The notes under the pieces: generated by a model | The model's database searches: none | Told to the model about the DNA's origin: nothing | The model's input: only the letters and a program-made list of their open reading frames with translations | Shown here: one piece after another, positions 28,260 to 45,391 of the stretch | Numbering within the stretch: position 1 is the first letter of the stretch | How the letters are laid out: each line of letters opens with the position of its first letter | Translations under genes and position numbers: made by a program | Origin: an uncultured Rubrobacteraceae bacterium | Lineage (GTDB): Bacteria > Actinomycetota > Rubrobacteria > Rubrobacterales > Rubrobacteraceae | DNA: 64,000 nt | Assembly (NCBI GenBank): GCA_902806065.1 | Contig: CADCVE010000001.1 | Location: 124,001-188,000, forward strand | Direction: 5' to 3'

Positions 28260-31200
28260 TTACTTTGCAGCCTTGCTTCGGGCCTGCGGTACCTCCGTCT
28301 CTCCGCTGTTGCCGTTCTGGCTTTCGGGGTCGTAGGCCAGGTTGGGGGCGAGCCACCTCTCGGCCTCTTCGAGCGTCATGCCCTTGCGCTCCGCGTAGTC
28401 GTCGGCCTGGTCGCGGCCTATCTCGGCGACACCGAAGTAGGAGGACTCCGGGTGTGAGAAGTAGTAGCCGCTGACCGCTGAGCCCGGCCACATCGCGCAG
28501 CTCTCGGTGAGCTCGATGCCGGCGTTCTCCTCCACGTTCAAGAGGTCCCAGAGGGTGCGCTTCTCTGTGTGCTCCGGGCAGGCCGGATAGCCGGGAGCGG
28601 GACGGATGCCGCGGTACTTCTCCCAGAGGAGGTCCTCACTGTCGAGGTCCTCGTCCGGTGCGTAGCCCCAGAACTCCCTGCGCACCCGCTCGTGCATCAA
28701 CTCGGCGAAGGCCTCGGCGATACGGTCAGCCAGAGCCTTGACCATGATGGAGTTGTAGACGTCGTTCTCTTCCTCGAAGCGCCGCGCGGCCTCCTCCGCC
28801 CCGGTTCCGGCGGTAACGGCGAAGAAACCGATGTAGTCCTCCAGACCCGTGTCCTTCGGGGCGAGGAAGTCTACCAGCGAGCGGTTCGGGCGGCCCGGGG
28901 GCTTCTGCTTCTGCTGGCGTAGGAAGTGGAAGTTCGTCAAGACCTCCTCGCGCGACTCGTCGGTATACACCTCCACGGAATCGTTCGGCAGGGTGTTGGC
29001 CGGGAAGAGACCGATGACGCCGCGGGGTTTGAGCCAGTCCTCTTCGATAACGCGGTCCAGAAGGGCCTGGGCCTCATTGAAGAGCGTGCGCGCCTCCTCG
29101 CCCTTCTCCGGGTCGTCGAAGATCTTCGGGTAGCTGCCCTTCATCTGCCAGGAGTGGAAAAAGGGTGTCCAGGCTATGTAGTTCCGGATCTCCTCTAGCG
29201 GGTAACCATCGAACGTCCGGATTCCGAGCACGTTCGGCCTCGGCGGGGCGTATCCCTTCCAGTCTATCTTCGTCCTGTTCGCCCGCGCTCTTTCGAGCTT
29301 GGCCATCTTCGTGCTGGACCTGCGTCCGGCGTGCTTTATGCGCACCTGCTCGTAATCGGCGGCGATCTGCTCGGCGTAGCCCGCCTTGCCCTTACCTACC
29401 AGGCTCTGCACCACACCCACGGCCCTCGACGCGTCCTTTACGTGAATAATGGGATGGTCGTACCCTGGCGCAATCTTCACGGCCGTATGCGTCTGCGAAG
29501 TCGTCGCCCCGCCGATAAGCAGCGGTATGTCGAAGCCCTCGCGCTGCATCTCCTTCGCGTTATGCACCATCTCATCCAGCGACGGCGTGATAAGCCCTGA
29601 GAGCCCAATGATGTCCGCGTTATTCTCCTTGGCGGCCTCCAGTATCTTCGCCGACGGCACCATTACCCCGAGGTCGATCACCTCGAAGTTGTTGCACTGC
29701 AACACGACCCCTACGATATTCTTGCCAATATCATGTACGTCGCCCTTCACGGTCGCCATAATAACCGTGCCGTTCGGCTTCTGGGCCTCACCCTTCTCCG
29801 CCTCGATAAACGGTAGCAGGTACGCGACGGCCTTCTTCATAACCCGCGCGCTCTTGACTACCTGCGGGAGAAACATCTTGCCCTCGCCGAACAGGTCCCC
29901 GACCACGTTCATCCCGTCCATAAGGGGACCTTCGATCACCTCTATCGGATGGGGGAACCGCTGGCGAGCCTCCTCGGTGTCATCCTCGACGTTATCGGTT
30001 ATGCCCTTGACGAGCGCGTGCTCCAGCCGCTTCTCCACCGGCCACGTCCGCCACTCCAGGTCCTTCTCCTTCACGGAGCCGTCGCCCTGATCCCGGTACT
30101 TCTCCGACAGCTCCAGCAACCGCTCCGTCGAATCGTCCCGGCGGTTCATCACTACATCCTCGACGGCCTCTCGCAACTCTTCGTCTATATCGTCATAGAC
30201 CGCGAGCTGGCCGGCGTTCACGATGCCCATCGTCAGCCCTGCATTGATCGCGTGGTACAGAAACGCCGCGTGCAACGCCTCACGCACCGGGTTGTTGCCG
30301 CGGAACGAGAACGAGACGTTGGAGATCCCGCCCGAAGTCTTGGCGTGGGGGAGGGTCTGGTGTATTTCCCTGACCGCCTCGATGTAGTCTACGCCGTAGT
30401 TGTTGTGCTCCTCGATGCCCGTGGCGATGGCGAAAACGTTCGGGTCGAAGACGATGTCCTCTGCTGGGAAGCCGATCTCCTCGGTGAGGATCTTGTAGGC
30501 GCGGGTGCAGATCTCGACCTTACGGTCCTTGGAGTCCGCCTGGCCCTGCTCGTCGAAGGCCATTACGATCACCGCCGCCCCGTACCTCTTCAGGAGCTGT
30601 GCCTGCCGGATGAACTCCTCCTCGCCCTCTTTCATGCTGATGGAGTTGACTATCGCCTTGCCCTGCACGAGCTTCAGGCCCGCCTCGATGATGGACCACT
30701 TGGACGCGTCGATCATCACCGGAACCCGCGAGATGTCCGGCTCCGCGGCTACGAGGTTCAGGAAGGTGACCATCGCCTCCTCACCGTCAAGCATCCCCTC
30801 ATCCATGTTGATGTCTATAATCTGCGCACCGTTCTCCACCTGCTGCCGCGCCACGTCCAGCGCCGTCTCATAATCGTCGTTCAGAATGAGTTCCTTGAAC
30901 CTCGCCGATCCCGTAACGTTCGTCCGCTCCCCGACGTTCACGAACAGCGAGTCCGGCCCGATATTGAGCGGCTCCAGCCCGGAGAGCCTCAGCTTCTTCG
31001 GAAGCTCCGGAACCTCGCGCGGCGCATGCCCGGAGACGGCCTCTGCCATCGCCCTGATGTGGTCCGGCGTCGTACCGCAGCAGCCCCCGACGATGTTCAA
31101 CCAACCGTTCGCGGCCCACTCCCCGATCTCCGCCGCCATGTACTCGGGGCTCTCATCGTACTCCCCGAACTCATTCGGCAGACCAGCGTTCGGGTACGCG

Positions 31201-32334: not shown

Positions 32335-32357
32335 TGAGGGCGAAGATGTCCCGCAAC

Positions 32358-32480
32358 CTCATCTCTCGGAGTCCCCTCCGCGGGAGTTGGCACCTGCCAC
32401 AGTCCTCCGGCTACTCTAATCCTTCGGGCCATCGGTTGCCGCAGCTTCTCAGGGCCCATCCCTCCACTGCTCTCGATGAG
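32358..32480 (-). ncRNA. SAM-I (S-box) riboswitch
   Basis: Read on the minus strand, the segment matches the S-box core in order: CTCATCGAGAGCAGTGGAGG (P1 5' strand and kink-turn), GGATGGGCCCTGAGAAGC, TGCGGCAACC, the P3 arm, GGTGCCAACTCCCGC, then CTCCGAGAGATGAG closing P1. All the conserved blocks (AGAG..GGAGGGA, GGCCC, GGCAACC, GGTGCCAA.TCC, GATGAG) are present. It binds S-adenosylmethionine and usually represses methionine and SAM synthesis genes. Here it lies upstream of metH on the same strand, 46 bases after the stop of crtB. Confidence 0.95.
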
Positions 32481-32525
32481 CGCCACCCGGGAAAACTCCC
32501 AGACAACTCCTAAATTACACCACGA

Positions 32526-42007: not shown

Positions 42008-42553
42008 TTAGCTGCTCTGTATAGGTTCGCGGACCGGGAGATCTACCTCGGTCTGCATAAAGTCGTTCATGTAGTTGGTGAAGGTGGCGAGGACTACGGT
42101 GGCGACCATTTCTATGATCTGCTCGTCGGTGTAGCCCGCCTCGCGGGCCTCGTTAAACGATCCGTCTGAGGGGTGCCCGCGGTACTCGACTACTTCCCGG
42201 GCGAACCGGAGGGCCGCCGCTCGCTGCTCGTCCTCGGACTCAAACTGTTGCACGCGCTCGATCTCGTCCTCGCTCATGCCTGCTTGCTCCGCCACGGCGG
42301 AGTGAGCCGACAGTCAGTAGACGCAGCCGTTGTAGTTCGAGGTCGCTATGTAGATGGACTCGTGGGTCATTTGGTCGAGGCTGCCGCCCTGGAGTGCACC
42401 ATTGAAGTCCCACCACCCCTGGAAGGACGCCGGGGAGACGGCCATCTGCTTGAGGAAGTTCAGCATCTGCCCGAAGGCTTGCTCACCTTGCTTCATCAGT
42501 GGCTGCGATGCCTCTGGGGCGTTCTCTGGCTCCACGGGTTGAATACGTGGCAT
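42008..42553 (-). CDS. AhpD-like (carboxymuconolactone decarboxylase family) protein with in-frame TGA: candidate selenoprotein
   Basis: One frame from ATG 42553 (AAAGGAG six bases upstream) to the stop at 42008 encodes an AhpD-type thiol peroxidase-like protein of 181 residues, broken only by TGA at 42316-42314 (codon 80). The AhpD active site Glu-x(n)-Cys-x2-Cys-x3-His is complete if the TGA is a Cys/Sec: Glu65 in THESIYIA, Cys77 in NGCVY, codon 80, then LSAH with His84. Conserved family sequence continues on both sides (SAHSAVAEQAGMSEDEIERV after it). A hairpin begins 11 nt after the TGA. Sec-containing AhpD-like proteins are known in bacteria. The alternative is a Cys to stop mutation. 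No sel genes are in the window. Confidence 0.72.
42287..42302 (-). promoter_or_regulatory. Candidate bacterial SECIS hairpin
   Basis: Minus-strand CTCCGC-CGTG-GCGGAG forms a perfect 6-bp stem (7 if C-G closes the loop) beginning 11 nt after the TGA. The apical loop CGUG has G at position two. An outer GCTCA/TGAGC helix can extend it. Spacing and loop G agree with bacterial SECIS rules; there is no bulged U as in E. coli fdhF. Confidence 0.55.
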
Positions 42554-42663
42554 GCATTACTCCTTTCCCATCCCTTACCTTACAATGCCAATCATACCCG
42601 AATTCTCGAATGAATAACTACGGGAGGTACCAGGCGCCACTTAAAGACCGGAAGCAGCGGTGC

Positions 42664-43083
42664 TTAGCGGCCTACCAGCATGGCACGATCCACCTTTATG
42701 CACCGGTCCATAACTACGGTCAGGCCATGCTCCTCAGCGTACCTCGCGGCCTCTTCGTTGATTACACCGGATTGCATCCACAATACCTTCGCCCCGGCAG
42801 CGACGGCATCCTCCGCGACCGGCATGACCTTCTCGCCACGGCGGAAGACGTCCACTATATCCACGTTCTCCGGTACCTCCTCGACGGTCGCATAGGGCTC
42901 CTCGCCCAGGACCGGTCCCGAGAGATTGGGGTTGACCGGGAAGATTCTGTATCCGAAGCTCTGTAGGGCGGCGGCGATGGCGTGGCTCGTGCGGTATGAG
43001 TTATCGGAGAGTCCGACGACCGCCACGGTGCGCGATTCTTCGAGGATGCGTTTGATCTCGCCGGCGCCGGGGTTTTTGTGCAT
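42664..43083 (-). CDS. CoA-binding domain protein (YccU-like)
   Basis: A 139-residue single-domain protein of the CoA-binding Rossmann family: TVAVVGLSDNSYRTSHAIAA at residues ~19-38, IFPVNPNLSGPVLGEEPYAT and the later KVLWMQSGVINEEAARYAEE with DRCIKVDRA at the end. Its closest named relatives are YccU proteins of unknown role. ATG 43083 has AAAGGA five bases upstream. It sits between the flavin disulfide reductase and the AhpD-like gene on the same strand, consistent with a small redox group, though gaps of 22 and 110 bases leave the operon uncertain. Confidence 0.92.
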   Translation of the reverse strand: MHKNPGAGEIKRILEESRTVAVVGLSDNSYRTSHAIAAALQSFGYRIFPVNPNLSGPVLGEEPYATVEEVPENVDIVDVFRRGEKVMPVAEDAVAAGAKVLWMQSGVINEEAARYAEEHGLTVVMDRCIKVDRAMLVGR

Positions 43084-43105: not shown

Positions 43106-44458
43106 CTACAGGTCCATTTTCTCCAGGGCTTCGAGGTAGGCCTGGGAGAATGTTGGGAACTGGAAGACGCTGTCGAGCAAGGTATCCACGGACATGCGCG
43201 TCCTGACTGCCAGACACGCCCCGTGGATCCACTCTCCCGCCAGCGGCGCTACCGCCCATGCTCCAACCAATACCCGCTCCCGCCTATCCACTACCAGCCC
43301 GAGGTTCCCCCGTGGTTCCTTCTCATAAGTCACGGGGCGCGCCAGCGCCCGCGGCAGCTCCAGGTCGATAGTTGCCACGTCCATCCCCTGCTCCCGCGCC
43401 TCCGCTTCGGTAATGCCCGTCGCGGCGATCTCCGGGTCCGAGAAGACGACCCGCGGGATGCCATGGTAATCTGCCCTTCGGTCTCCGCCCAGAATATTCG
43501 CCGCTACTATCTTCCCCTGATACTGGGCCACGTGCGTGAACAGCGAGATCCCCGTAACATCCCCAATCGCCCAGAGGCCGGGAACTCCATCAACCTGGCA
43601 GCGGTCGTCTACGGCGAGGCCTTTCTCGTCTGGCTCCACCCCAACGGACTCCAGCCCGATACCCTCGACCCTCGGCGTGCGGCCCGCGACGGTTACCAGT
43701 ACGTCCGTCTGCAACTCCTCGCCGTCGTCGAGCGTTATGACCGAGCTACCGTTCTCCTTGCGGGCTTTCTCTACCCTCCGGCCCACCCGCACGCCAATAC
43801 CGTCTTCTTCGAGGATTGGTTTGATGATCTCGCTAACCCTCGGGTCCTCTCTGTTTATAAGGCTGTCGGGACTCTGGACTAGAGTGACCTGGCTCCCCAA
43901 ACGGGAGAGCCACTGGCTGGTCTCTATCCCGTTCGGACCACCACCAACGATGACGGATCGCTCCGGGATCTCGCGCGTCGTGGTCGCCTCACGGTTCGTC
44001 CACACCGTTATGTCTTCGAGGCCCTCGATTGGTAGCACGTTCGACGCGGAGCCGGTCGCCACTACTATATGGTCCGCTTCGAGAATTTCGCCGTTGACCT
44101 CTACACGGCCCGGCCCGGCCAGACGGCCTTCGCCTCTGACGACCGTGGCGCCCTTCTTCTCGTAGCTCTCCACCTCTCCGGAGTCATCGAGGTTACGAAT
44201 GATGTAGTCCCGGTAGTCGAAGATGTCCTCTAGTTTCAGTTCTGTCGTGCCGGTTCCGAAGGCCCTGCTCGCCTCGTTTTGGACCTCCGGTGGCCGGAGC
44301 AGCGTCTTGGACGGTATACATGCCCAGTACGCGCACTCACCCCCGAGCAACTCCCGCTCCACTACCGCAACCTTCTTGCCTGCGCTCAGCAGGAGTCCCG
44401 CCGCGGCTTCACCGCCGGGACCCATGCCCAGGATCACCACATCGAACTTCTCAGCCAC
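43106..44458 (-). CDS. FAD-dependent pyridine nucleotide-disulfide oxidoreductase (class I)
   Basis: A 450-residue flavoprotein. FAD motif VVILGMGPGGEAAAGLLLSA at residues ~7-26, redox disulfide in GGECAYWACIPSKTLLR (Cys-x4-Cys), NAD(P) motif VIVGGGPNGIETSQWLSRLG and the FAD ribityl motif VPGLWAIGDVTG. The end reads FQFPTFSQAYLEAL, so the usual His-Pro/Glu pair of lipoamide dehydrogenases is altered; it fits the mercuric-reductase-like or general dihydrolipoamide-dehydrogenase-like subgroup with unknown electron acceptor. GTG 44458 has GGAGG seven bases upstream. Its neighbours include the AhpD-like protein, and AhpD in mycobacteria is reduced through a lipoamide dehydrogenase, so it could be the reductase for that system (inference). 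Confidence 0.9.
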   Translation of the reverse strand: MAEKFDVVILGMGPGGEAAAGLLLSAGKKVAVVERELLGGECAYWACIPSKTLLRPPEVQNEASRAFGTGTTELKLEDIFDYRDYIIRNLDDSGEVESYEKKGATVVRGEGRLAGPGRVEVNGEILEADHIVVATGSASNVLPIEGLEDITVWTNREATTTREIPERSVIVGGGPNGIETSQWLSRLGSQVTLVQSPDSLINREDPRVSEIIKPILEEDGIGVRVGRRVEKARKENGSSVITLDDGEELQTDVLVTVAGRTPRVEGIGLESVGVEPDEKGLAVDDRCQVDGVPGLWAIGDVTGISLFTHVAQYQGKIVAANILGGDRRADYHGIPRVVFSDPEIAATGITEAEAREQGMDVATIDLELPRALARPVTYEKEPRGNLGLVVDRRERVLVGAWAVAPLAGEWIHGACLAVRTRMSVDTLLDSVFQFPTFSQAYLEALEKMDL

Positions 44459-44521: not shown

Positions 44522-45391
44522 CTAGAAGTTTACGCCGAGTGGGACGAGCGCGTGCTCTTTGCCTTTTGCCTCGACCATCACATCGGCCTCCCTCTCTCCG
44601 AGGGCGTCCACCAGCCGGTTCCAATCGGCGAGATCCACGGAGTATGCGTGGGCGCCGGGCTGCTTCTCGGGGTCCTGGCTGGAGAGGTGTAGCTTGGGAC
44701 GCGTCTCCCGCCTCTCCCAGGTTGGCAAAGAGAGGTCAAGCGCCTCCCCTAGCGTGAGACCGGCCGGGTTCAAACCATGATGAAAGGCATCGGTTATCGT
44801 CGGTATGCCCAGGGCCACGGAGGTCGTGACGATCTCCGGTACCGCCCACACGCGCTCGTCGTTCTCCAGCGCCAGGTACCGGAGGACATCACCCTCGCGC
44901 CGCATCACTTCGATAAAACGCTCGCTAGCGCCAGGCTTGTCCGTGTAGGCGCCGCCCATGTGTAACACGAGCACCGAGTCCGAACTGCCTATAAGGTTGA
45001 GGATGCGGGCCACGTAGCGCAACTCTATCAGGCTGCGTTGCGCCACGTCGGGTTTGGGGCTACCGGGTTGAATGTACTGTCCCGGGTGCATGCTCAGACG
45101 GATGCCAAGCTCCCGCGCGCGCCGGCCGGCGCGCCGCAGCTCGTCCTCGTGCTCTCGCTCCCAGTCGTATGGAAACTCGGGGTGGGAGGCGAATGGGATC
45201 AGGGCCTGCCCCATTCTGAAGAGCGGTATCCCGTGCGCAGCGTTCCACTCCAGAATAGTCTCCAAACCGGCGATGTTCTCCCGAACCAACGCCCGCACCT
45301 TCTCGGTGTCTTGAAGGTTCGCAAGCCGTAGACTCCGGTTGGTCCCCGCCGGTATCGTCAGGTTCTGCGTCGGGTAACCTAGCCGTATCAC
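44522..45391 (-). CDS. uvsE: UV damage endonuclease (UvdE)
   Basis: UvsE/UVDE nicks DNA 5' of UV photoproducts and other lesions. The 289-residue protein has the RLGYPTQNL start and a full set of metal ligands by comparison with the Thermus enzyme: His70 (PFASHP), His102 (SMHPGQY), His144 (LVLHMGG), Glu176 (LALENDERV), Asp201/His204 (TDAFHHG), His235 (KLHLSS) and Glu274 with Lys276 (VMVEAKGKE). All expected residues are present, so activity is likely. The start is GTG 45391 with no strong ribosome-binding site. It fits the radiation-tolerant lifestyle of Rubrobacter. Confidence 0.95.

Follow-up and report, generated by a model that had tools for sequence, protein, structure and literature searches.

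A predicted AhpD-like selenoprotein with selenocysteine at the site of the second redox cysteine in an uncultured Rubrobacteraceae bacterium

An AhpD-like gene interrupted by TGA and its surroundings

The window, that is, the whole stretch of 64,000 nucleotides that was analyzed, carries on its minus strand an AhpD-like gene of 181 codons, which runs from an ATG at 42553-42551 to a final TAA at 42010-42008. Its sole internal stop is a TGA at codon 80, in the context GCVY-U-LSAH. The gene, the elements within and before it and its upstream neighbors are as follows:

42008-42553, minus strand: gene for a predicted AhpD-like (CMD-fold) selenoprotein (translation with TGA read as U, Pfam, TIGR00778, orthologues, AlphaFold2/Foldseek)
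42314-42316, minus strand: in-frame UGA, codon 80, predicted Sec of the CxxU-x3-H active site (TGA in orthologues, Cys in relatives)
42287-42302, minus strand: predicted bacterial SECIS hairpin CTCCGC-CGUG-GCGGAG (published bSECIS constraints; covariation at the apex)
42560-42564, minus strand: ribosome-binding site AGGAG (read from the sequence)
42664-43083, minus strand: CoA-binding-domain protein, the gene just upstream (Pfam CoA_binding_2, 1.2e-38)
43106-44458, minus strand: flavin disulfide reductase (Pyr_redox_2, CxxxxC; Pfam 2.4e-59)
44522-45391, minus strand: uvsE (UV damage endonuclease), further upstream and conserved (TIGR00629 above cut-off; synteny)

A sequence-only reading of this DNA had described an open frame broken by nothing but the TGA at codon 80 and preceded by a good ribosome-binding site. 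Both statements are borne out: the translation and 16 of 16 orthologous sequences show the same interruption, and the AGGAG lies 6 nt 5′ of the start codon. The same reading had set this TGA apart from other genes of the window said to be broken by TAG or TAA in place of Gln, a contrast that found no confirmation: a scan of the window for other read-through joins yielded candidates without Pfam support, and four of them, across TAG or TAA, gave no Pfam match when read through. A promoter scan around the AhpD-like gene found nothing.

The most constant neighbor is the small CoA-binding gene, which adjoins the orthologue in 9 of the 12 loci examined. The flavin reductase lies upstream of it in 4 of the 12 (in addition to the window), all from the closest relatives, and four loci of other genera lack it there. 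Related genera keep the arrangement uvsE, (flavin reductase), CoA-binding gene, AhpD-like gene. Of the neighborhood with a flavin disulfide reductase and uvsE to which seleno-peroxidase chemistry had been fitted, both members are present, but the reductase is not a fixed part of it; the constant member is the CoA-binding gene. It is possible that the flavin disulfide reductase serves as the electron source for the AhpD-like protein. Lipoamide dehydrogenases have an HPTxSE dyad. The neighboring reductase (43106-44458) has the CxxxxC motif but reads FPTFSQ at the place of this dyad, so that it is perhaps no standard disulfide reductase. Elsewhere in the window, a SAM riboswitch (RF00162, 71.7 bits) is found at 32356-32482 on the minus strand.

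Conservation of the TGA and the hairpin, and presence of the decoding machinery

The gene occurs in 15 of the 40 species genomes that represent the order. These 15 gave 17 orthologous matches, including two contig-end fragments in one genome (G021), and 16 of these span the TGA site. All 16 have TGA at the position of codon 80 and none has another internal stop, with identities to the window protein ranging from 71% down to 52%. More broadly, the in-frame stops in all CMD-domain matches of the 40 genomes comprise 41 TGA, 0 TAA and 0 TAG, the exact stop position having been checked in a part of the 41. Relatives outside the order have Cys (TGC or TGT) at the aligned site, as in CTYCLSAH, SDYCLSVH and CDYCVAAH, and so do plasmid-borne homologues. 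An in-frame UGA is therefore found where homologues have Cys, the pattern by which a selenoprotein is recognized. The alignment of homologues that had been proposed as a check accordingly came out with TGA in orthologues and Cys in relatives, and the decay and other stops that were to count against the proposal are absent from the 16 site-spanning sequences. Furthermore, differences per site at codon positions 1, 2 and 3 amount to 0.229, 0.181 and 0.431 in the part 3′ of the TGA and to 0.286, 0.219 and 0.413 in the stretch 5′ of it; purifying selection of the protein type persists beyond the TGA. A tree of 62 rows groups the window protein in a clade made up of Sec forms throughout (support 98/97), with Cys forms from other actinobacteria, from proteobacteria and from Deinococcus as its neighbors. 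The Sec and Cys labels on this tree require three changes, at least two of which are forced by well-supported branches, some long-branch placements being unsure.

According to the bSECIS model, a bacterial SECIS element has a stem of 4-16 bp and a loop of 3-9 nt with a G in the first two loop positions, lies with its loop 16-37 nt from the UGA and folds with at most -7.5 kcal/mol, the loop often following N1-G-[G/U]-N-N2 with N1 paired to N2 (PMC13188914). The hairpin in the window starts 11 nt 3′ of the UGA and has 6 bp, the loop CGUG, a spacing of 17 nt from UGA to loop and an energy of -9.0 kcal/mol. Of 15 orthologues, 14 satisfy the model, the window gene being one of them; the exception is L027, from a fragmented genome. 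As a control, codons of 13 genes from the genome that contains the window were examined, and 9.1% of these codons are followed by such a hairpin. In 12 gapless aligned sequences the pair flanking the GU apex is A-U in 4, C-G in 4 and G-C in 4, a covariation that none of 500 shuffles equalled and no slid version of the alignment came close to. Since these two flanking bases occupy the third positions of an Ala codon and the Val codon next to it, selection on the protein does not link them. L029 and L030 have different codons here and form another stem of 7 bp, in which a one-sided change from G-U to G-C distinguishes the two. Most stem pairs are invariant and lie in conserved codons, and the covariation consists of the one apex pair plus the L029/L030 stem. 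The hairpin is not shared by the Cys homologues. When single sequences were folded against synonymous shuffles, significance was weak (p 0.006-0.31), as GC-rich codons pair easily.

The source genome, a draft of 3.75 Mb in 112 contigs that is 95% complete, contains the full set of selA, selB, tRNA-Sec and selD that a bacterial selenoprotein requires, and the search for Sec machinery suggested along with the original proposal thus succeeded for every component. tRNA-Sec is present in one clear copy (66.5 bits, the gathering score being 47; ARAGORN concurs) and adjoins the other two genes on contig C94 in the order selA, selB, tRNA-Sec. Whereas selA was identified by reading the ORF that immediately precedes selB in the same orientation, selB, selD and tRNA-Sec were identified by curated models. 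The selD gene (L018), on contig C48, is itself interrupted by a single in-frame TGA, at the Cys/Sec site (QKAG-U-ASK), and has a strong SECIS hairpin (-13.3 kcal/mol), so that, by the same kind of reasoning, this genome would already make another selenoprotein. Failure to detect selB in three carriers of the AhpD-like gene concerns incomplete genomes in every case (G021, G022 and G038); because nearly all genomes of the order have selB, its co-occurrence with the gene does not discriminate. A global reassignment of TGA is ruled out, as TGA also serves as a normal stop here.

AhpC/TSA-family proteins also occur in the genome, and one of them is itself a likely selenoprotein. A peroxiredoxin-like gene on contig C15 (L148, 32003-32371, minus strand) has an in-frame TGA at its redox site, GDWUPYC; it is likely a second redox selenoprotein and possibly a partner of the AhpD-like protein. 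A further AhpC/TSA-family match with one in-frame TGA (L149) lies on contig C48 at 30220-30576.

Given a draft assembly of 112 contigs and the single base that separates TGC or TGT from TGA, one could imagine that a gene with Cys at this site is decaying and that the interruption arose by nonsense mutation, or that it is a base error. However, 16 of 16 orthologous sequences from 15 genomes share the TGA and have no other stop, the part 3′ of it is under selection and the hairpin is conserved, which makes a pseudogene or sequencing error extremely improbable. Scarcely more credible is regulated or leaky termination, whereby the gene would yield a 79-residue N-terminal product or be read through by near-cognate Trp or Cys incorporation without selenium. 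Normal genes of this genome do end in TGA as well, but the truncated product would be deprived of Sec80, His84 and more than half of the fold, SelB and tRNA-Sec are encoded in the genome, the hairpin matches the model of a SelB target, and relatives have Cys at exactly this site. Judged by these comparisons, the TGA at codon 80 of the AhpD-like gene is almost certainly read as selenocysteine, which would stand at the reactive position.

Predicted fold, active site and chemistry

The Pfam CMD domain (PF02627) covers residues 41-118 (E 7.7e-16; 58.3 bits against a cut-off of 23), and TIGR00778 (ahpD_dom) is matched with 52.5 bits, above its cut-off of 27.8. AlphaFold2, run on the orthologue alignment, gave an all-helical model with a pLDDT of 94.7 and a pTM of 0.90, whose best Foldseek matches are SMU.961 (3lvy) and S. 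pneumoniae AhpD (6e8l), with TM of 0.84-0.87. The curated cut-offs passed and the modeled helical fold of CMD type indicate that the protein belongs to the CMD/AhpD-like family. A proton relay has been described for M. tuberculosis AhpD (Glu118, Cys130, His132, Cys133, His137) and for PA0269 (Glu36, Cys48, Tyr50, Cys51, His55) (PMC3141380). Its equivalents in the window protein are Glu65, Cys77, Tyr79, Sec80 and His84, invariant in the 15 aligned orthologues. Thus, Glu65, Cys77 and His84 are intact, as had been read from the sequence, and Tyr79 can be added to them.

The original proposal had placed the TGA at the resolving Cys. In M. tuberculosis AhpD, AhpC is contacted by Cys133, and Cys130 is partly buried (PMC6626918). 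By homology with Cys133, we infer the opposite assignment, with Sec80 as the exposed attacking residue and Cys77 as the resolving one. The roles of the Cys residues can differ among AhpDs, since the first Cys is reported to be of greater importance in B. thailandensis AhpD (PMC6626918). In the mechanism that we propose, SelB with Sec-tRNA would bind the hairpin 3′ of the UGA and Sec would be inserted at codon 80, giving the active site Cys77-Val-Tyr-Sec80-x3-His84, backed by Glu65. Most likely, the selenolate would attack peroxide or a peroxiredoxin partner at its oxidized active site, Cys77 would then resolve Sec80 as a selenenylsulfide, and the latter would be reduced by a cellular dithiol or a flavin disulfide reductase. 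Both the enzyme activity and the redox partner of the protein are what we infer from its homologues.

Alternatively, the selenoprotein might be neither a peroxidase nor a reductase of AhpC and carry out other CMD chemistry, for example Bmp8-like reductive dehalogenation, perhaps on a CoA-linked substrate. The structural matches include Bmp8 (TM 0.80), and no neighbor is more constant than the CoA-binding gene (9 of 12 loci). Against this, AhpD-type proteins come first among both the fold and the sequence matches, the proton relay is fully intact, and the CoA-binding neighbor may be unrelated; we consider such chemistry rather unlikely. As one joint reading, the locus is very probably best explained by an AhpD-like (CMD-fold, peroxidase-related) selenoprotein with Sec at codon 80 and peroxide- or peroxiredoxin-type chemistry. 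Several independent lines of sequence evidence support the Sec decoding, and homology suggests the chemistry and the partners.

Predicted AhpD-like selenoproteins in the order and in known families

The order holds at least six further TGA-bearing AhpD-like subfamilies with the stop at the same active-site position (L126, L127, L129, L132, L139-L145). Those with the first Cys have the motifs C(L/V)FULTNH, CHYUVTHH, C(F/H)YU(M/I)PTH and CNYUQSHG, and two subfamilies are without it (NQA(E/R)YU and GGAPU). A SECIS element by the published bSECIS model is found at 13 of 13 checked sites of these further subfamilies. It is reasonably likely that an unusual radiation of AhpD-like selenoproteins has taken place in the order, with at least seven TGA-bearing subfamilies sharing one position, of which the window gene represents the best conserved branch, and that the GxxU/AxxU forms lacking the first Cys are one-selenol enzymes with an external resolving thiol. 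The AhpD-like selenoproteins predicted across the order, alongside sister forms with Cys that these genomes also encode, would provide a system for asking why Sec is retained here. The window gene is, moreover, a cleanly supported selenoprotein candidate in a non-marine Actinomycetota lineage that ordinary annotation would call broken. The score of the window protein stays under the cut-off in all full-length curated models, and the gene would for this reason be missed or split in genome annotation.

Sec-containing AhpD-like proteins are known from bacterial surveys, as the sequence-only reading had stated: CxxU forms were predicted from Sargasso Sea and GOS data (PMC1088965, PMC2398784) and are placed under TIGR01926 in Table 1 of a 2026 review (PMC13188914). 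Rubrobacter xylanophilus is known to use Sec and has five selenoproteins (PMC1794560). With the TIGR01926/COG2128 selenoprotein, the window protein shares the fold family, Sec in place of the second Cys of CxxC, a SECIS element close by on the 3′ side and widespread Cys homologues; it differs in its host, which belongs to an Actinomycetota order and not to marine metagenomes, and in having no NCBIfam model of its own. In the peroxidase-related subfamily TIGR01926 itself it scores 71.9 bits, below the cut-off of 81.8, and one orthologue (G037) reaches 82.0, so that the clade sits at the border of this subfamily. The distant AhpD homolog family of GSU3128 (NF041047) likewise has an AhpD core with CxxU, but its members have 84 residues and the window protein scores 31.6 against a cut-off of 110. 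The YciW-related (seleno)protein NF053654, a (seleno)protein by name, is AhpD-like and aligns over nearly the full length, although with 38.8 bits against a cut-off of 310.

Among the proteins of known structure, S. pneumoniae AhpD (6e8l) and S. mutans SMU.961 (3lvy) share the fold over the whole chain but have Cys for Sec and are 23-24% identical. M. tuberculosis AhpD (1gu9), part of the Lpd-lipoyl-AhpD-AhpC peroxidase, shares the relay Glu-x11-Cys-x-(His/Tyr)-Cys-x3-His, whereas its chain topology differs (TM about 0.55), it has Cys, and no ahpC adjoins the window gene. For AhpD proper, the M. tuberculosis type (TIGR00777), the window protein scores 19.1 bits against a cut-off of 191.95, and with its different topology it falls outside that group. 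Overall, AhpD-like CxxU selenoproteins are a kind already predicted, to which the window gene adds a well-supported member.
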